A stretch of 64,000 bases of DNA, taken from assembly GCA_030648295.1 (NCBI GenBank), contig JAUSID010000163.1, positions 62,001 to 126,000 of the forward strand, given 5' to 3'. Source of the DNA: Opitutaceae bacterium. Lineage in GTDB: Bacteria > Verrucomicrobiota > Verrucomicrobiia > Opitutales > Opitutaceae. The position numbers and the translations under genes are program-made. Of the stretch, positions 11,547-31,337 are shown in pieces (position 1 is the first letter of the stretch; each line of letters begins with the position of its first letter). The notes beneath the pieces were generated by a model that made no database searches, was not told the DNA's origin, and saw only the letters and a program-made list of their open reading frames with translations.

Positions 11547-13353
11547 GTCCATTTCAATGCACGAGCACCTTTTGAACCTCAACGCCGACGTGCAGAAGAC
11601 CTGGCTGCGCCAAGTCGGCGCGTGGGACAAGACGTTGACCCGCAAGGCACAGTTCGTGGCGGCCATCGAAGCCTACCTGCGCGACAACCTCGCGGGGTTC
11701 ATCGCCCGGTTGTCGGAACCGGAGAAACTTCTGCTGGCCGAATCCGCGCACCAAGGACGCCTGATCGGTGCCCGCGAGTTCGAAGGCAAATACGGCGGAC
11801 CGTGCCCGATGCCGAAAGGCTACTACGGCTACGGCGAGAAGATTCCGCTGCTGGCCGCGGTGATTTGCCGGCCGCGAAATGCCTACGAAGGCGAACCGGT
11901 GTTGGCGCGCGAACTGATTGAGCCGCTGCGGCGGTTGCTGCCCAGGCCGGCCGCCGTGCAACCGCGCACGCAACCGGCACTGCCGATGTTCTGGCCGTCC
12001 GAGCAGCACGAAAACGGCGACGAAAAGGTCCGCCCGGTCCAGGTCCACGAAGGCGAGCGGATCGCGCCGGTCGAACTGGTTCGTGTGTTGCGGCTGATCC
12101 AAGGGGGCAAGGTCCACGTCGCCGCTTCCAGCCGGCGGCCAACGGATGCGGCGACGCGGTTGATCGGCGAGGCGCTGTTGGTGCCGGATTTCGCGCTGGA
12201 CCCGCCGAAAACGGAAACCGACAAGTGGACCGAACTCGGCGGTCCGGTTCGCGCGCATGCCTGGGGCGTGCTGGTGCAGCAATGCGGCTGGGCCCGGCCA
12301 CACGGCGGCGCACTGAAGCTGACCGCGGCCGGCCAGGCCATGCTGCGGGGCTTTTCACCGGAGGCGTTTCGCGCGGGCGTGATGGAGTTCCTCGGCAACG
12401 GTGAGTTCGACGAGTTGCACCGCGTCACCCATATTCGCGGCCAGTCGGGCAAGGCGCGGCGATGGATTAGCGATCCCGGCGTGCGCAAAGCCGCTGTTGA
12501 GGAGGCGATGAGCGCGCTGCCCGTCGGCGATTGGCTGGCCTACGAGGAGGCGCGGCGAATCATCGAGGCATCCGGCGAGGAGTGGGACGTGCTGGAGGAA
12601 GACGCCGGCGTGCTCTACTTCGCCGAGCTGCGCTACGGGGTGATCAACGACATGGCCGGCCTCAACAGCCAGTTCTTGCGGGCGCTGTTCCTCGAATCGT
12701 TCGCCACGCTCGGCCTGCTGGATGTCGGTTATGTGTATCCACAATCCCTCTGGCCCGACCTCGGCGATGCGTGGGGGATCGAAGACATGAGTTTCTGCGG
12801 TCGCTACGACGGGCTGCTTTTCGTGCGGGTCAATCCGCTCGGCGCCTATGCACTCGGATACTCCGACGGCTATGAGCTCCGCGCCGATCCGGGGCCGAAA
12901 CTACTCCGCGTTCTGCCGGAGCTGGAAATCCATCTCGCGACCGACGTGCTTAATCCCGCCGATCGCGCCTGCCTGGAACTGATGGCCGTGTGTCGGTACG
13001 ACGGGGTCTGGGTCCTCGACGCGGAGCGCATTCTCTCGCATGTCGAAGCCGGCGGCGCGCTGGCCGAGTTGCAGCAGTTTCTGGAAGCGAACGCAGCGGA
13101 CGGCCTGCCGGAGAGCGTGTGCGATTTCCTGGCGTCGCTCGAGCGGCGCATCCGGGCTTTCCGGCGCGCGCGTGAAGCGGTGCTGCTGGAATGGGAAGAC
13201 GAAGGTCTCGCGCGTCACATTGCTGCCGATGCCACCACCAGCCCGCTTTGTTCCCACGCGGGTGGCAATCGGTTGGTCGTGTCGAAGGACCAGCTCAACG
13301 CATTTCGGCGCGCGTTGAAGCAACTCGGATTCGTCATGCCGGCGGGAAAGTAG
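11545..13353 (+). CDS. Protein resembling the C-terminal region of XPB-type helicases
   Basis: 602 residues, unknown function. The C-terminal third (~res 405-545) reads like the 'XPB/Ssl2-like helicase C-terminal' domain found in bacterial proteins. It has a hydrophobic core strand 'PELEIHLATDVLNPADRACLELMAVCRYDGVWVLDAERI', then 'VEAGGALAELQQFLEANAADGLPESVCDFLASLERRI' (the GLP...v..fL segment) and a final VSKDQLNAFRRALKQLGF. In the family this pattern is fused to, or encoded beside, an SF2 helicase or another DNA-repair module. Here I see no Walker A or helicase motifs and no helicase neighbour. The N-terminal half has winged-helix-like segments (PVELVRVLRLIQGGKVHVAASSRRPT). Cytoplasmic, no signal peptide. 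Flanked by unrelated genes on the opposite strand. Alternative start: the ATG four codons later (MHEHLLNLN). Confidence 0.75.
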   Translation: MSISMHEHLLNLNADVQKTWLRQVGAWDKTLTRKAQFVAAIEAYLRDNLAGFIARLSEPEKLLLAESAHQGRLIGAREFEGKYGGPCPMPKGYYGYGEKIPLLAAVICRPRNAYEGEPVLARELIEPLRRLLPRPAAVQPRTQPALPMFWPSEQHENGDEKVRPVQVHEGERIAPVELVRVLRLIQGGKVHVAASSRRPTDAATRLIGEALLVPDFALDPPKTETDKWTELGGPVRAHAWGVLVQQCGWARPHGGALKLTAAGQAMLRGFSPEAFRAGVMEFLGNGEFDELHRVTHIRGQSGKARRWISDPGVRKAAVEEAMSALPVGDWLAYEEARRIIEASGEEWDVLEEDAGVLYFAELRYGVINDMAGLNSQFLRALFLESFATLGLLDVGYVYPQSLWPDLGDAWGIEDMSFCGRYDGLLFVRVNPLGAYALGYSDGYELRADPGPKLLRVLPELEIHLATDVLNPADRACLELMAVCRYDGVWVLDAERILSHVEAGGALAELQQFLEANAADGLPESVCDFLASLERRIRAFRRAREAVLLEWEDEGLARHIAADATTSPLCSHAGGNRLVVSKDQLNAFRRALKQLGFVMPAGK

Positions 13354-13369
13354 GCGTCCTGGACGCCGC

Positions 13370-14458
13370 TCAACCCGCGACCTTCGGCGTTTCGGCCAGC
13401 GCGGAGTCGAACGACTTCAGCATCGCGGCAATCGTCGCGTCGGTCTCGTCACCCATGTTCGAGATCCGGAAGGTCTTTCCCTTCAGCTTGCCGTAGCCGC
13501 CGTCGATCACCAGCTGGTGCTTCGTTTTCAGCGTCTTGTTCAGCGCGGGGAGATCGATGTTCTGCGTGTTCGCAAAGCAGTTCAGCGTCACCGAGCCGTA
13601 GCCCTCCTTCGGGAAAAATTTGAAGCCCTTCGCGAACACGTGCTCGCGCACGGTCTGGTTCAGCCGCGCGTGACGCGCGTAACGATTCTCGATTCCCTCG
13701 GCCTTGATGTCCTCGAGCTTCGACTTCAGCGCGTAGATCAGCGGAATCACCGGCGTGCTCGGCGTCATGCCCGCCTCGTGGTTCTTCTGGAATTCGACGA
13801 AGTCGAAATAGTAGCCGCGGCCCTCGGTCTTCGCGGCGCGATCGAGCGCGCGTTTCGAAACCGACAGCAGCGAAAGCCCCGGCGGCAGCGCGAGCGCCTT
13901 TTGCGAACCGGTAATCAGAACGTCGATGCCGAGCTCGTCCTTCTTGATCGGCAGCGCGCTGAACGAGCTCACCGTGTCGACGATCGAAATCACGTCCGGA
14001 AACTCGCGGACCACCTTCATGATCGCCGCGAGATCGCTCATGCATCCGCATGACGTCTCGTTGTGAATCAGCGTCAGCGCGTCATAGCCGCCCCTGGCCA
14101 GTTCGCGGCGGACGGCGTCGGGATCGACCGGCTGGCCCCATTCGAATTTCAACGCCGTGGCCTGCTTCGCATCGCGCTGGGCGACATTGAACCATTTGTC
14201 CGAGAACGCACCGTTCATGCAGTTCAGCACTTTTTTCTGCACCACGTTCCGCAGCGTGCCCTCCATCGCGCCCCACGCGCTGCTGGTCGAGAGGTACACG
14301 GGGTCCTTCGTATACATGAGCTCCTGAAGCTGCGGCTGGATCGATTGGTAGAGCGCCACGAAGTCGGTGCTGCGGTGCCCGATCATCGGCTGCGCCATGG
14401 CGCGAAGCGTTTTTTCCGAGACGGCGATCGGGCCGGGGATGAAAAGTTTGTAGCTCAT
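13370..14458 (-). CDS. Class V aminotransferase (serine/alanine-glyoxylate type)
   Basis: PLP enzyme of 362 residues moving an amino group between Ser/Ala and a 2-oxo acid. Start: ATG at 14458, giving MSYKLFIPGP, typical of the family; the in-frame extension upstream is repeat sequence. The PLP lysine is K187 in ITGSQKALALPPG. D161 (SIVDTVSSFSALP) holds the pyridine nitrogen. H132-N-E-T-S and the N-terminal PGP motif bind the substrate carboxylate. Related enzymes serve as phosphoserine or serine-glyoxylate aminotransferases, and in some bacteria lacking SerC they take that role. The exact substrate cannot be read from sequence. The start codon is directly preceded by a palindrome of the family also found before lpxK and the M29 gene. 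Confidence 0.88.
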   Translation of the reverse strand: MSYKLFIPGPIAVSEKTLRAMAQPMIGHRSTDFVALYQSIQPQLQELMYTKDPVYLSTSSAWGAMEGTLRNVVQKKVLNCMNGAFSDKWFNVAQRDAKQATALKFEWGQPVDPDAVRRELARGGYDALTLIHNETSCGCMSDLAAIMKVVREFPDVISIVDTVSSFSALPIKKDELGIDVLITGSQKALALPPGLSLLSVSKRALDRAAKTEGRGYYFDFVEFQKNHEAGMTPSTPVIPLIYALKSKLEDIKAEGIENRYARHARLNQTVREHVFAKGFKFFPKEGYGSVTLNCFANTQNIDLPALNKTLKTKHQLVIDGGYGKLKGKTFRISNMGDETDATIAAMLKSFDSALAETPKVAG

Positions 14459-14479
14459 GGTTTTTGCTGCGCCAAAACC
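14459..14479. promoter_or_regulatory. Start-abutting palindrome 1 (GGTTTT...AAAACC family)
   Basis: On the minus strand GGTTTTGGC and GCAAAAACC flank a 3-nt centre, ending at the base before the aminotransferase ATG. It differs at one position from the element in front of lpxK over 21 bp. A hairpin here would place the start codon at the foot of the stem. Confidence 0.7.
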
Positions 14480-14483
14480 AAAT

Positions 14484-14506
14484 CGATTTTCCGCAGCGGA
14501 AAATCG
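14484..14506. repeat. 23-bp palindrome in the divergent promoter region
   Basis: Perfect 11-bp arms CGATTTTCCGC and GCGGAAAATCG around one A. Flanking sequence extends the symmetry imperfectly (CCAAAACCAAA on one side, TTTGGTGTTGG on the other), making ~50 bp of dyad structure between the divergent aminotransferase and lpxK genes. It could be an operator or a cruciform-forming repeat. Confidence 0.6.
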
Positions 14507-14608
14507 GTCGTTTGGTGTTGGCAGACTGATTGGAAGTTCACAAAGGAGGCGTGACGATGTGCACACGCGCCCCCGAAAACTGTTTACGTACTGATACCCG
14601 TCAACCTT

Positions 14609-14631
14609 AGGTTTTTGCGCAGCAAAAACCT
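14609..14631. promoter_or_regulatory. Start-abutting palindrome 2, before lpxK
   Basis: Perfect 10-bp arms AGGTTTTTGC and GCAAAAACCT around GCA. It ends one base before the lpxK ATG (14633), leaving no room for a Shine-Dalgarno motif outside the hairpin. Confidence 0.75.
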
Positions 14632-14632
14632 C

Positions 14633-15835
14633 ATGTGGCTGAAACGACGGCTCAACGCGCTAGAGCTCTTCACGATTGACGTGATCTACGGACGGCGTGC
14701 GGGCGCCGGGCCGATGCTTTACGGCGGGTTCCTGCAGGGACTGTCGTGGCTTTTCAGCGGCGTGGCGCAGGCGAGGCTCTGGCTTTACCGGCACCGGATT
14801 CTCCACGACCAGCCGCTCGGGTGCCTCGTCGTGGTGGTTGGCAACCTTACCGTCGGCGGCACCGGGAAAACCCCCGTGGTGGAAAAATTCGCGCGGGCGC
14901 TGCGCGATCGCGGCCGCCGCGTGGCTATTCTCAGCCGTGGTTACAAGAGCAAGGCGCCGCCGTTCTGGAAACGGCTGTGGTGGGAGCTGACGCATGCAGA
15001 ACTGCCGCCGCCGCGGATCGTGAGCGATGGCGAAAGGGTCCTGCTCGACAGCGAGCAGGCGGGCGATGAGCCGTTCATGCTGGCGCGAAACCTTCCCGGC
15101 GTGATCGTGCTCGTGGACAAGAACCGCGTGAACGCGGGCGCGTATGCGATCAAGAAATTCGGCTGCGATACCCTGGTGCTCGATGACGGGTTCCAATACC
15201 TGCCGCTGAAGGGCCGGTTGAACCTCCTGCTGGTGGACAAGACCAATCCGTTCGGCAATGGCCACCTGCTGCCCCGCGGAATCTTGCGCGAACCGATCAA
15301 GCACGTGCGCCGCGCGAGCTATGTTTTCCTCACGAAGTCAAACGGCGTGCGCGATCGCGAACTCGAGCAGCTGATCGACACGCATAATCCGGGCGTGGAT
15401 ATCATCGAGTGTGCGCACCGCCCGCAGTACCTCCAGCGGTTTGGGCTGCTGCTCAACGCGGCGGGTGCGCGCGAACCACTCGTGTTCCTCAAGGGGAAAC
15501 GCGTGTTTGCGTTCAGCGGCATCGCCACGCCCGAGAGCTTCGAGAAATTCCTGCGCGATCTCGGTGCGATGCTTGTCGGCCGCGAACGATTCCTCGATCA
15601 TTACCGTTATGAACCGGAGGACATCGAGGGATTGTTCGAACTCGCGCGGCGCGAAGGCGCGGAATGCCTGGTGACAACGGAAAAGGACGCGGTCCGAATC
15701 AGCGAGACGGCAGCGCTGCCGCTGCCTTTGTACTACCTGCGGCTGGAGATCGAAATCCTCCGCGGCGCCGCCGACTTCGACGAAGCCGTCGGTCGGATTT
15801 GTTTCCCACAGGTTTTCGCTCCGCGAAAACCTTAG
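14633..15835 (+). CDS. lpxK: Tetraacyldisaccharide 4'-kinase (lipid A biosynthesis)
   Basis: Phosphorylates the 4' position of the lipid A disaccharide precursor at the cytoplasmic face of the inner membrane; proof that this organism makes lipid A. 400 residues. Near the N-terminus is an amphipathic membrane-association segment ([19 protein letters not shown]). The P-loop [12 protein letters not shown] is at ~70-81, followed by [10 protein letters not shown] and the [10 protein letters not shown] motif (~184-193) with the conserved Asp-Asp-Gly-Phe-Gln. Then come [14 protein letters not shown] and the C-terminal [12 protein letters not shown]. All are LpxK hallmarks. ATG at 14633 preferred over an in-frame TTG at 14615, which lies inside the palindrome. 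The last seven codons (VFAPRKP-stop) are themselves a palindrome of the local family, so the C-terminus seems to have been rewritten by an inserted element. Confidence 0.95.
15810..15832. repeat. Palindrome 3, inside the end of lpxK
   Basis: Perfect 10-bp arms AGGTTTTCGC and GCGAAAACCT around TCC. It encodes the last residues of LpxK up to the base before its final stop codon. Same arms as the element at 15904-15926. Confidence 0.75.
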
Positions 15836-15903
15836 CGCAATCCAGTTGATCGCTCAGTTGACGAGAATTCGTTGGCTTTTTGCTTCGCTAAACCGACAAA
15901 GTT

Positions 15904-15926
15904 AGGTTTTCGCAGAGCGAAAACCT
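15904..15926. promoter_or_regulatory. Start-abutting palindrome 4, before the M29 gene
   Basis: Perfect 10-bp arms AGGTTTTCGC and GCGAAAACCT around AGA. The ATG at 15927 follows with no gap. A more decayed relative lies just upstream (~15873-15893, GGCTTTTTGC...GCTAAACC). Confidence 0.75.
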
Positions 15927-17057
15927 ATGATCATCGACCCCCGTTTCAACGAACTCGCCGCTGGCCTCACCGGGTTTTCGACCTCGCTGAAGAAAGGGGA
16001 GCGCGTCCTGATCGATGCTTTCGACGTGCCCGATGCGATGATCATTGCGCTCGTGCGTGCGGCGCGCGACCGCGGCGCCTATCCGTACGTGCAAATCCAC
16101 CGGGCGCGCGTCACCCGCGAGATGTCGCTGGGCGCGGAGGAGGCGCAGTTCGCGCCCCACGCCGACATCGAACTGGCGCGCATGCAAAAAATGGATGCGT
16201 ACATCGCCCTCCGCGGGTCGGAAAACATATTCGAGGCGTCCGACGTTCCGTCCGACCGCGTGCAACTTGTGTCGCGATTGATGAAACCGGTTCTCGATCA
16301 CCGCGTCGGCAAGACCAAGTGGGTCGTGCTGCGCTGGCCAAGCTCCGCCATGGCGCAGCAGGCCGGCATGAGCACCGAGGCATTCGAGGATTTCTACTTC
16401 CGCGTTTGCACGCTCGATTACGCGCGGATGACGCCGGGCATGAAGGCGCTCTCGGACCTGATGAAGAAAACCGACCGCGTCCACATCAAGGGACCCGGCA
16501 CCGATCTGCGTTTCTCGATCAAGGGCATCGGCGCGCAGCCATGCGGCGGGTTGCGCAACATTCCCGATGGCGAGGTCTTCTCGTGCCCGGTGAGGGATTC
16601 GGTCGAAGGCTACATCCAATACAACGCGCCCACGGTCTACCTCGGCGCGTCATTCGACAACATCCGGCTCGTGTTCAACAAGGGCCGGATCATCGAGGCC
16701 ACAGCCAACAACACCAGGCGGCTGAACGAGGTCCTGGACAGTGACGCGGGCGCGCGGTACATCGGCGAATTCGCGATCGGATTCAATCCGCACATCCTGG
16801 AGCCGATGCGGGACATTCTCTTCGACGAAAAAATCGCCGGGTCCTTCCATTTCACGCCGGGACAGGCCTACGAAGGCGTCGGCAACGGCAACAAGTCGCA
16901 GGTCCATTGGGACATGGTCTGTATCCAGCGGACCGAGTACGGTGGCGGCGAAATCTGGTTCGACGGAAAACTGATCCGCCAGGACGGCCAGTTCGTGCCG
17001 AAGTCGCTGCACAAGCTGAATCCGGATTATCTGCTGGGCCGCGGCAGCAACCGCTAA
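15927..17057 (+). CDS. M29-family metallo-aminopeptidase
   Basis: Cytoplasmic aminopeptidase (AmpS / aminopeptidase T type) removing N-terminal residues, 376 residues, close to the family length. Expected metal ligands of M29 are visible: the Glu in [12 protein letters not shown] (~res 213-224), the Glu in [13 protein letters not shown] (~275-287), the His in [12 protein letters not shown] (~318-329) preceded by a further His in [12 protein letters not shown], and the late '[12 protein letters not shown]' strand. The N-terminal domain with [13 protein letters not shown] and RGAYPYVQ is also typical. Start ATG directly follows a palindrome. Downstream is a 45-bp tandem repeat array. No operon partner beyond lpxK ~90 bp upstream. 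Confidence 0.9.
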
Positions 17058-17070
17058 TCCAGATTTGTTC

Positions 17071-17240
17071 AACCGCGAATTCACGCGAATGGACACGAAT
17101 TAAATCCAGGTGTGCAACCGCGAATTCACGCGAAGGAACGCGAATGAAATCCAGGTGTGCAACCGCGAATTCACGCGAAGGAACGCGAATTCAATCCAGA
17201 TGGTGAAACCGCGAATTCACGCGAATGGACGCGAATGGAG
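17071..17240. repeat. Tandem array of four ~45-bp repeats
   Basis: AACCGCGAATTCACGCGA starts at 17071, 17116, 17161 and 17207 (periods 45, 45, 46). Each unit carries a spacer like ATCCAGGTGTGC. The mirror-image arm GCGTCCATTCGCGTTCATTCGCGGTT lies at ~17520-17548, so the array and that arm enclose the 17241-17515 spacer as a larger inverted structure. Same core as the ends of the 178-bp repeats at 4103 and 18741. Confidence 0.85.
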
Positions 17241-17283
17241 TCCTAGCGAGGCGCAGCCTCCGACCCGACACATTTCCCCGTTT

Positions 17284-17369
17284 GTCATTCTGAGGCCTGG
17301 CGAAGAATCCAGCACGATGCTCGGAGCCGGACGCGCCATTGGATTCTTCGGCGGCCCTCAGAATGACAG
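17284..17369. repeat. Inverted repeat of the GTCATTCTGAGG type
   Basis: GTCATTCTGAGGCC...GCGAAGAATCCA faces TGGATTCTTCG...GGCCCTCAGAATGAC, ~28-bp arms around ~27 bp. Sequences of this type are widespread short palindromic repeats in several bacterial phyla. No gene in 17241-17584. Confidence 0.7.
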
Positions 17370-17584
17370 TTTAGGAATTTTCGAAAACCCTGGTCGCCTT
17401 CGGCGCCGCCAAAGGCGGGTAAGCTTGACCTCTTCACAACGAGTTTGGGAGTTCATGGAGTCCCAGCTGGTTCAACCGCGACGACCTTGAACCCAGCTTT
17501 CCCACGCCGATGTCTTTATTCGCGTCCATTCGCGTTCATTCGCGGTTTCACCCGCCCGGCATTCGCCTTGATTAGCGGTCTTTC

Positions 17585-18565
17585 ATGCGCGATTTCATCC
17601 AGGCGCTGCCGAAAACGGAAACGCATCTCCACGTCGAGGGTGCGCTGCCTTACGAGCTGCTGACCGACTGGGATCCGGAGCAGTGGCCGCCCGACCCGTT
17701 GTTTCGCAGCCGCAGTTATCGGTATGCGACGTTTCCGGATTTCGAGCGGATCCTGCTCGATCATGCGCTGCCGTGGTTCACGACCGCGGAGCGGTACCAC
17801 CAGGCGGCGAAGGTGATTTTCGCGAAGCACGTCGCGCAGAACGTGCGGTACGTCGAGACGAGTTTCCATCTGCCAATCGTGACGCTCACGAAGTTGACGG
17901 GGCCCGAGATCATCGCCGCGATCCGAGCCGCGGTTCCGGATGGACTCGAGGTGCGAATTCTCGCCGGGATGCTGCGCAGCGACATCGCGGGAGAGCTGCG
18001 CCCGATCATCGAGCAACTGCACGACTGGGACGGACTCGCGGGAGTAGACCTGCATGGCAACGAGCAGCTGCCCACGCACCCGGATACCGCGGCGCTCTGG
18101 GCGCGAATCCGCGCCGCGGGAAAGATGACGAAATGCCACGCCGGCGAGTTCGATGGGCCAGCGCGCGTGCGCGAGGCGATTGAAGTTCTCGGCGTTCGCC
18201 GGATTCAGCATGGCATCCGCGCAATCGAGGATCCCGCGGTGGTCCGGCTCGCCGTTGCTCACGGGGCGACGTTCGACGTTTGTCCGCTCAGCAACGTCGG
18301 CCTGAAAGTCGTGTCTGCGCTGAAGGAGCATCCGATCCGCCGTTTGATGACGGCCGGCGTGCGCTGCACGGTGAGCACGGATGATCCGCTCTGTTTCGCG
18401 AACACGCTGACCGAGGAGTACGAGTCGCTCGCGACGGAACTGACCTTCACGCGGAAAGAGCTGGCGCAAGTCGCGCGCAACGGCTGGGAGGTTGCCGACG
18501 TCGGCGCCGAGGTGCGCAACCGGATGACGGCCTCGATCGATCGGATCCTCGCCGCCGCCGGCTGA
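17585..18565 (+). CDS. Adenosine deaminase family hydrolase
   Basis: Zinc amidohydrolase of the adenosine/adenine deaminase family, 326 residues. Metal and catalytic marks: H14 and H16 in [11 protein letters not shown], the catalytic Glu and zinc His in KCHAGEFDG (~178-186), the second His in RRIQHGIRA (~204), and the Asp pair in [11 protein letters not shown] (~261). In purine salvage such enzymes turn adenosine into inosine. Relatives act on adenine or on aminodeoxyfutalosine in the futalosine menaquinone route, and the substrate cannot be decided here. Cytoplasmic, single gene. The start is a GTG-free ATG at 17585, right after repeat sequence, with no Shine-Dalgarno motif. Confidence 0.85.
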
Positions 18566-18651: not shown

Positions 18652-18674
18652 AATGTCACGTATTACGTGACATT
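18652..18674. repeat. ACGTATTACGT palindrome, copy 1
   Basis: AATGTCACGTA and TACGTGACATT around one T, a 23-bp perfect odd palindrome ~85 bp past the deaminase stop. Centre shared with 18701-18721 and, at its core, with 31319-31337. Confidence 0.75.
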
Positions 18675-18700: not shown

Positions 18701-18721
18701 ACGTCACGTATTACGTGACGT
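18701..18721. repeat. ACGTATTACGT palindrome, copy 2
   Basis: ACGTCACGTA and TACGTGACGT around one T. Centre-to-centre distance to copy 1 is 48 bp. The pair could be an operator for the gene at 19019 or a mobile palindromic repeat. Confidence 0.75.
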
Positions 18722-29807: not shown

Positions 29808-31319
29808 TTATGGACGCAGATCACGGCGGGATGTCGCGCCCCATATCCGGACGTTTCGAAATTCGGCGGAGCCGCGGTGAACGAGGAATTCGATTCGCGA
29901 GCCGGCCCGGGAACGTGCCGGCCACGTCGTCGTCAACGCGGGTCGGCCGTCGACCGTCAGCACCAGCGATTCACCGACAAGTTCGAGCACCACGGCGTGC
30001 CACTGGTTGCCGGTAATCGGCGCCGGGACGGAATCCGGTCGGGACGCCACCGTCGCGGCAGGAGGTCCACCGGGCGCCAACGTGAGCCGGTCTCGTCCAG
30101 CCAGAGTCGAACGCGGGCATCGGATGCATCTGAAAGCTGGATACCGGCACGGGTTTGGCCGGAGAATCGCGTTTCAAAGTGGATGACGGCCCCAGCGAAC
30201 GGCGGCTCGCAGTGGAGCGTGGCGGCCGCGCCGCGGCCGGCGGAACCACGCGTGGCGCCAGCGCCCGACGTCCACTCTCCGGCGCGCCGTCGCCACGACG
30301 GTGCGAGCGGCAGCTCCGCGAGACTGTCGCTAAGAGAATCAATCCGCGCGTCGTGCACGACGTCGGCGGCCCGTCGATCATCGGTGCATCCGCGACCGTG
30401 AGCTGCTGCCGCATCCGCTGCACCGACTGGTCGAGTCGTTCCATTTCGATCTGGATGGCGGCGGGGTCCTCGGCGCCGCCGCCCTGGTCATGGGTGGCGC
30501 GCATCCACGCCTCGAGCGCGTGGCGCAGCCGCGCGAGTTCGGAAACGGCGGCCGGATTGCCGCGGAAATCCTCGCGACCATGGTCGGCGAAAAAAACACG
30601 GCCGTGTTGTCGCGCAGTCCGTCCTGCTCGAGTCGCCGGAGAACGACGCCAGCCTTGGCGTCCACGCGGCCGACTTCGTCGAGGTAAGCGGCCCAGTCGG
30701 CGCGGATCACCGGATCGTCGGCGAGGTAGCCAGGGAGGTCGACCGAGGCCGGGTCGACCGGATTGTCCTCAGCTTTTCGATACGGCCGGTGGGTCTGCTG
30801 GAAATTCAGCTGCGCGTAAAAGGGCTGCCGGCCCTTCAGGTCGGCCCATTTGTCGCCGTCGAACGCCCTGCCGTCGTCGTGAAAGTTCCAGTCGGTCTTG
30901 GCCGCGCCCGAGAAACCGAGTTCCGGCGGCAACGAGCGCAGGTTCACCGTGAAGTAGCCGGCTTCACGCATCCGCTCGGTGATGAGCCGGACATCCGCGG
31001 GCCGGTGGAACCCGTCTTGGCGGTGACTGCGATGATGATGCGCGCCAATGGCCGTTTGATCGCGGCCGGTCATGAACGCCGAGCGCGAAGGGGAGCAGAC
31101 CGAGGCGGTCGCGAACGCGCGCGTAAACCGGCGCGACTCGGTCGCGAACTGATCGATGTTCGGCGTGCGGACAGACTTGTTGCCGTAGCAGCCAAAGTCG
31201 GGGCACGCATCCTCGATGATCAGCCAGAGGATGTTCGGCCTGACCGGGAGCGTGGCGGCCTGAGCGGCGCCGATGCCGGCGCACCACACCACGAACGCGA
31301 GGAACCCGACGCGACGCAT
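29808..31319 (-). pseudogene. Arylsulfatase-type sulfatase with C-terminal lectin-like domain, broken by three frameshifts
   Basis: The N-terminal part (from ATG 31319) is a good sulfatase: signal peptide (GFLAFVVWCAGIGAAQA), metal site RPNILWLIIEDACPDFGCYG, and the formylglycine site C75-SPSR in ATASVCSPSRSAFMTGR. The frame breaks first at 30590-30596, a run of seven A (seven T on the coding strand): one more T would give VFFFADHGRED, the expected metal-site strand. A second break lies near 30360-30368 (one base short; TVVHDARIDSLSDSLAEL after repair) and a third near 30082 (one base short; SRLAPGGPPAATV after repair). Beyond, residues like NQWHAVVLELVGESLVLTVDG and FRNVRIWGATS form a concanavalin/DUF1080-like end domain. 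All three are single-base losses, so the gene is decayed unless the sequence is wrong. Confidence 0.85.
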
Positions 31320-31337
31320 TTAACGTAATACGTTAAA
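31319..31337. promoter_or_regulatory. ACGTATTACGT palindrome, copy 3, at a start codon
   Basis: TTTAACGTA and TACGTTAAA around one base; its last A is the first base of the sulfatase ATG (read on the minus strand). Same 11-bp core as 18652-18674 and 18701-18721. Confidence 0.7.

Follow-up and report, generated by a model that had tools for sequence, protein, structure and literature searches.

A dispersed REP-like palindrome family at stop codons, start codons and RNA genes in an Opitutaceae genus

Palindromes can become part of coding sequence, as the Rickettsia palindromic elements (RPE) do. Other described repeats set a context for the family analysed here, and are given as they appear in excerpts of the sources cited. 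GTAG and CGTC REPs lie near the 3' ends of ORFs, the GTAG termini supply TAG stops, and Opitutus terrae, a member of the Verrucomicrobia, is highly enriched in GTAG repeats (PMC3733652). In E. coli, REPs situated no more than 15 nt from a stop codon are reported to regulate translation (Liang 2015, as described in PMC12306157). The TAACTGA repeats of Beggiatoaceae are abundant and intergenic, with a proposed role in post-transcriptional control (PMC4679880), and yeast mitochondria have both tRNA punctuation and mobile double-hairpin elements (PMC4618339).

Here we present a family of short palindromes recognised in a window of 64,000 nt from Opitutaceae bacterium (GenBank assembly GCA_030648295.1, contig JAUSID010000163.1, positions 62,001 to 126,000), where copies stand before start codons and had been taken for either a mobile palindrome that targets start codons or a shared translation signal. 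We consider it probable, on balance, that they form a lineage-specific, old REP-like family whose copies lie flush with functional units, and for which acting as a start signal is not the role. The interest of the family is that a repeat is placed to the base at stops, starts and RNA genes alike, in bacteria without a Shine-Dalgarno signal.

The window locus and the extent of the family

All four palindromes of the form GGTTTT-N-GC…GC-N-AAAACC that had been predicted around the aminotransferase, lpxK and M29 peptidase genes were confirmed by sequence and scan (Table 1). Three stand 0-2 bases 5' of ATGs, and the copies at 14459 and 14610, oriented to their genes, indeed differ at one of 21 positions. 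The further statement that the window holds no other copy stands for copies fitting the pattern, of which the scan gave no more, but not for the decayed copy between lpxK and the peptidase gene. Predicted RNA energies of the four copies range from -6.6 to -12.6 kcal/mol, and a search of window positions 13000-18000 with the Rfam 15 covariance models gave 0 matches up to E=1. The lpxK product (400 residues) is aligned by full-length matches from the genus only as far as residue 393-398, and its N-terminus in the window's own assembly (G000; 9.1 Mb, 294 contigs) is 3 codons shorter than in, e.g., genome G018.

Table 1. Features of the aminotransferase-lpxK-M29 peptidase locus in window coordinates; gene names are those of the original prediction, with no family search.
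Feature	Position	Strand	21-nt core	Core to start codon (nt)	Remarks
Aminotransferase gene	13370..14458	-
Palindrome copy 1	14459..14479	-	14459-14479	0	flush with the aminotransferase start codon, CAT 14456-14458; one mispair in stem
Sister-type hairpin, arms GATTTTCCGC / GCGGAAAATC	14482..14508	.			beside copy 1, in the aminotransferase-lpxK spacer
Palindrome copy 2, 23-mer AGGTTTTTGC GCA GCAAAAACCT	14609..14631	+	14610-14630	2	ends 1 nt 5' of the lpxK ATG at 14633
lpxK gene	14633..15835	+
Palindrome copy 3	15810..15832	+	15811-15831		encodes lpxK tail VFAPRKP and runs into the TAG ending 15835
Decayed family copy GGCTTTTTGCTTCGCTAAACC	15874..15894	.			spacer between lpxK and M29 peptidase
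Palindrome copy 4, 23-mer AGGTTTTCGC AGA GCGAAAACCT	15904..15926	+	15905-15925	1	immediately 5' of the M29 peptidase ATG at 15927
M29 peptidase gene	15927..17057	+

Other motifs were also seen in the window. A block GAAAAC-GTTTACG ... CGTCAACCTT (TTGACG-like, minus strand) lies at about 14570-14608 in the aminotransferase-lpxK spacer and recurs at many lpxK loci; kept with or without palindromes, it is a possible promoter. A second palindrome type, with the core ACGTATTACGT / ACGTAATACGT, is found at 18652-18674, 18701-18721 and 31319-31337, the first two at least 86 nt from called genes, and also 3' of lpxK in G003. By eye, a GCGAATTCACGCGAATGGACGCGAA-like unit forms direct repeats at 17080-17240 and about 17515-17550, in the spacer after the M29 gene.

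Allowing up to 2 mismatches, GGTTTTYGCNNNGCRAAAACC occurs at 75 places in G000 against 1 for the reversed control, which excludes chance; the bare core TTTTYGCNNNGCRAAAA occurs at 49 places against 1. At up to 1 mismatch, carriers were found among 10 of 38 genomes searched (G000 included), all from one Opitutaceae genus, so that the predicted dispersed palindrome family is borne out; there was no match at this threshold in 15 other genomes of the genus or in 13 from other families of the order. When 387 genomes, drawn evenly across the phylum, were searched with the 23-mer and up to 1 mismatch was allowed, 3 matched: G000 and two others (G142, 5 copies; G053, 1 copy), of which the one with 5 copies belongs to another genus of the same family and the one with a single copy to another class. 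G022, with 6 places of the shorter pattern in the search of 38 genomes, had no match to the 23-mer in this one. According to the named records of lpxK orthologs, the genus is placed in Opitutaceae, Verrucomicrobiota, and nearly all of it is metagenome-assembled.

The family unit is 23 bp long, consisting of AGGTTTTYGC, a free 3-base loop and GCRAAAACCT, which gives ten pairs. Its limits were fixed by covariation: the outermost pair (+1) covaries, while pairs +2 to +4 are not paired above shuffled. Repeated through one genome and mainly extragenic, with 7 of 167 copies well inside called genes, a palindrome of this length falls within the broad sense of REP (a short palindrome of 20-40 bp). When 37 other hairpins of G000 were examined, most of those lying flush proved to be sister types carrying TTTT/AAAA arms or a variant with a 4-base loop. 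Copies of a 24-bp variant, with GCTGCTGC or GCAGCAGC in the middle, were seen at L034 2761-2784, L054 2166-2189, L067 2269-2292 (flush with a stop codon) and L070 1300-1323 and 2749-2772.

Contact with stop codons, start codons and RNA genes

Copies were collected with the regular expression TTTT[CTG]GCNNNGC[GAC]AAAA from fetched stretches of eight genomes, representing part of their copies, and any closer than about 200 nt to the end of its stretch was left out. This gave 167 distinct copies (G000, 54; G017, 30; G004, 25; G003, 22; G011, 14; G002, 10; G005, 7; G022, 5). Genes were called with a home-made, simple codon-usage scorer trained on the window. Removal of the 7 copies inside genes, 3 of them far from gene ends, and of 5 without a called gene on one side left 155. 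Expected counts are those of uniform placement in the same spacers, and the pooled counts include some orthologous sites more than once.

Stop codons were the commonest contact. A gap of -2 to 0 was found in 63 of 154 stop-facing flanks against 21.5 expected, a count reached in 0 of 5000 simulations, and in 14 further stop-facing flanks the gap was below -2 and the copy codes for the tail. At gap -1, the stop codon was TAG in 35 of 37 copies, and the 24 stop codons at gap 0 were TGA (15), TAG (6) and TAA (3); therefore, the unit shares the stop codon. Counted by eye, 16 of 22 element-free orthologs shown have a TGA stop. Start-facing flanks had a gap of 0-3 in 28 of 156 cases against 10.7 expected (0 of 5000 simulations). 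When only spacers of at least 60 nt were taken, contact was found at 27 of 92 stops (0.5 expected) and 21 of 124 starts (2.4 expected), and leaving out the window and the lpxK loci gave 20 of 140 for starts (10.2 expected) and 63 of 152 for stops (21.4 expected), with 0 of 5000 simulations reaching either count.

The two contacts are unevenly distributed among genomes. In G000 alone, 20 of 44 stops (7.2 expected) and 9 of 56 starts (4.4 expected; 40 of 5000 simulations) were touched, three of the nine start contacts being the window's own. The original prediction had made its case depend on enrichment of copies next to start codons genome-wide; over the eight genomes such enrichment is found, but in G000, once the window copies are set aside, starts show no significant excess (6 of 50 against 4.2 expected, 764 of 5000 simulations), while stop contact persists (20 of 42 against 7.1; 0 of 5000). 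Start contact is clear in G002, G004 and G011, with part of the excess coming from lpxK-locus copies, and does not stand out in G003, G005, G017 or G022; stop contact is clear in G000, G003, G004, G011 and G017, and not in G002, G005 or G022. Copies lie between divergent and convergent genes in 35 and 34 of the 155 cases, respectively, and among element-free gene pairs of G000, 27 of 165 are divergent and 31 convergent. Eight convergent pairs have a single copy in contact with both of their stops, to within 2 nt. One copy, at L047 2814-2834 (contig C209 of G000), has a Cas4-like stop on one side (gap -1) and a Cas1-like start on the other (gap 5), the genes being named by eye.

RNA genes are touched as well. 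ARAGORN was applied to 45 loci, chosen chiefly because they hold copies that lie clear of called gene edges. It placed the 5' end of the tmRNA of G000 (L014) 1 nt from a copy core, ran the 3' end of a tRNA-Ser (L056) into a copy and set a tRNA-Arg of G011 (L217) 4 nt after one; at four other scanned loci, tRNAs lay farther from copies. The L056 copy (2513-2533) includes the encoded 3' end of the tRNA-Ser, with its complement on the far side. The tmRNA and tRNA contacts argue against a translation-start signal. That copies lie directly before start codons is thus true of the window but makes up the lesser share of the pattern, stops being touched more often, and a mobile palindrome that targets start codons is too narrow a description when stop contacts outnumber start contacts and a tmRNA and two tRNAs are included.

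The original prediction had also seen a puzzle in a hairpin that leaves no room for ribosome binding. A Shine-Dalgarno signal was not seen in G000: among its ATG genes with at least 40 nt upstream free of a copy, an SD-like 4-mer was present between -20 and about -4 in 3 of 94 upstream regions against 5.8 in shuffled ones. The last five bases before the ATG of these 94 genes are C-rich. Two Verrucomicrobia are named among SD-scarce organisms in an excerpt of PMC10783764. Without such a signal in the genome, the problem of ribosome-binding room disappears; a hairpin at the ATG is still unexpected for SD-less initiation.

Native edges, inheritance and decay

As far as sequence comparison goes, the gene edges touched by copies are real, native edges. 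In orthologs from the element-free genomes G008 and G018 and from G022, which has few copies, the start codon is in the same place for 8 of 8 genes with start contact, and the stop codon is in the same place or no more than one codon away for 8 of 9 genes with stop contact; one of the eight agreeing stop genes (L057) was seen in one genome only, and in the ninth (L042) another hairpin forms the tail.

The same gene edge holds copies in different species, in a sample selected for intact copies. The aminotransferase start has palindrome copies also in G003, G004 and G011, and the lpxK start in G002, G003, G004 and G011, with a decayed one in G005. Using a threshold of at least 14 of 23 letters, which one shuffle per flank never approached beyond 13, we recognised a copy in 28 of 62 orthologous flanks from G002, G003, G004 and G011, 25 of these lying no more than 6 nt from the edge; in this count, two sites enter from both sides, at least 2 weaker matches may be chance, and the L066 copy, the same in G004, was missed by the alignment window. 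At a DAHP synthase-like start (named by eye), the locus-specific variant AAGCTTTTTGC is shared by G002, G003 and G011, while G000 has a form close to it and G004 a decayed one, a pattern that speaks for inheritance. Many copies decay, including copies at orthologous starts.

Stem cells at orthologous sites were unchanged in 200 cases, compensated in 31, restored in 5 and broken in 44, counts that derive from reference copies chosen for intact stems and in which the compensated positions are largely those variable in the family. The arms of orthologous copies are identical at 443 of 560 letters and the loop at 40 of 84. Some orthologous copies may have been replaced by another family copy.

The history of the lpxK locus was followed in a tree of 80 proteins, made up of 79 named loci and the window after one cut locus was dropped. 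Intact start copies (5 rows) and remnants (11 rows, by eye) each need at least 3 changes on this tree, the support of which is weak around the window. In the closest pair of states, L381 against L385, L386 and L394 (about 90% nucleotide identity in lpxK), one state has copies or remnants at both starts and the other lacks them, and the entire intergenic block differs (about 70 against 144 nt), so that the difference may as well stem from block exchange as from insertion. The tree suggests independent precise gains at lpxK, but this block-wise difference weakens that reading, and no recent insertion was caught in this closest with/without-element pair. The four genomes have 1 or 2 pattern matches each.

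Origin of the placement and relation to known systems

Under the reading that we favour, copies would have spread long ago, probably by way of a trans-acting mobiliser, and survive in spacer DNA, often flush with the functional unit that follows. The sequences show that, at 3' ends, a copy commonly shares the stop codon (T+AG, TG+A or TA+A) or supplies a short tail and a stop, so that the protein is hardly changed; at 5' ends, a unit directly before the ATG takes away no ribosome-binding site, as no Shine-Dalgarno signal is seen in the genome. Such tolerance may be the reason for the placement, and exact contact is not what random insertion into spacers would produce on its own. Many copies are inherited at the same gene edge across species and others decay, and stems are kept by compensatory changes beyond what drift should allow, either through selection on the hairpin or through hairpin-templated correction. 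Start placement would be one face of a general gene-edge placement rather than a translation signal. The family is thus a warning against reading every palindrome before an ATG as a translation signal, and it makes the long-standing question of the role of REP-like palindromes at gene ends testable where start-side contact is tolerated.

Two routes to the exact contact were considered and rejected. A stop-like insertion target (TNA or TAG left of copies) is not shared, beyond a paired A/T, by copies that stand clear of gene edges on both sides. Growth of the palindrome into the neighbouring gene by templated extension is not a general cause, with pairs +2 to +4 not above shuffled, although the tRNA-Ser copy of L056 does pair into the tRNA end. 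Also, the sequence does not suit an intrinsic terminator, since its arms run from T to A, which is not the base order that a U tract requires. By eye, no repeated flank of the kind that a MITE of a DDE transposon would leave as a target-site duplication stood out among the flanks listed.

The hairpins might instead act on mRNA, stabilising the 3' end or slowing the terminating ribosome after a stop (actions reported for the stop-proximal E. coli REPs) and modulating initiation before an ATG, with selection keeping stem and position. We regard this as possible but not likely. The predominance of stop codons among contacts, the compensation that keeps stems at orthologous sites and a mean predicted RNA energy of -11.3 kcal/mol are what it would lead one to expect, but copies are as common between divergent genes, where there is no 3' end, as between convergent ones, which argues against a pure 3'-end role; furthermore, element-free relatives manage without copies, many copies decay, and tmRNA and tRNA edges are touched too.

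We think it unlikely that old copies became flush by erosion, that is, by deletion of the DNA between element and gene while the element stayed. Copies are old and inherited, and one-sided copies keep a long spacer on the far side, as erosion would allow; however, the peak at stop flanks is sharp, with 61 at gap -1 or 0 against 15 at gap 1-25, and the element itself would have to be protected.

It is doubtful that the family represents diverged members of the GTAG REP superfamily, mobilised by RAYT transposases. The size class, palindromic form, intergenic position near ORF 3' ends and TAG-giving ends are the same as in the excerpted account of GTAG REPs, the reported richness of O. terrae in such REPs (PMC3733652) is in line with it, and Y1_Tnp (PF01797) matches occur in 23 of 27 genomes of the genus. 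The tags are absent, however: GTAG occurs no more than 8 nt from an end in 18 of 155 copies, in none of them at both ends, and a CGTC tag at one end was found in 3 of 155, and membership of either REP class was rejected on this ground; in flanks away from genes, the letters preferred before GG are C, T/C, any, A, and not GTAG. Nor was a link to RAYT upheld, as 0 of 32 Y1_Tnp loci (31 distinct genes) had a family copy in a stretch of up to 1.5 kb, several of these being cut by contig ends and the set covering 9 of the 11 G000 matches and a minority of Y1 matches in the genus. By eye, Y1 counts do not track carrier status.

More speculative, and highly improbable in our estimate, is that the hairpins are RNA punctuation marks, by analogy with the tRNAs that punctuate mitochondrial transcripts: a nuclease would cut at the base of the 10-pair stem, freeing AUG-first messages, stop-ended messages and the ends of tmRNA and tRNAs, and leaderless AUG-first messages would fit a genome without Shine-Dalgarno. 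Finally, a shared translation signal at start codons, the original alternative, is scarcely credible, for although a copy stands no more than 6 nt from the start in 13 genes of G000, among them the three of the window, and the DAHP synthase-like start keeps its copy across genomes, starts are few per genome, copies at the same starts decay, element-free orthologs start at the same codon, and stops, tmRNA and tRNAs are touched as well.

Set beside described systems, the family shares with RPE that palindromes enter coding sequence, here as short C-terminal tails, e.g. VFAPRKP, but differs in how rarely copies lie inside called genes (7 of 167) and far from their ends (3). Like the Beggiatoaceae TAACTGA repeats, as excerpted, it is an abundant intergenic repeat; those, however, are direct heptamers and not palindromes. 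With the yeast mitochondrial elements, in the excerpt cited, it has in common structured RNA at gene borders and mobile hairpins, RNA processing being only hypothetical for the family. The excerpted E. coli stop-proximal REPs likewise place a hairpin within 15 nt of a stop codon, whereas here the gap is in most cases 0 or -1 nt and contact extends to start codons. The family did not turn up in literature searches, among them those on Opitutaceae palindromic repeats and O. terrae REPs. The GTAG REPs of the excerpted account are also 20-40 bp palindromes in many copies, intergenic, near ORF 3' ends and with TAG-supplying ends; the present family differs in its symmetric ends without the GTAG tag, in showing no RAYT linkage, in being as common between divergent as convergent genes, and in touching starts, tmRNA and tRNAs. 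Because it has no tag and no RAYT neighbour and touches starts and RNA genes, we file it as REP-like, a new variant and not a GTAG REP, set apart from the O. terrae families solely by the GTAG tag through which they were compared.
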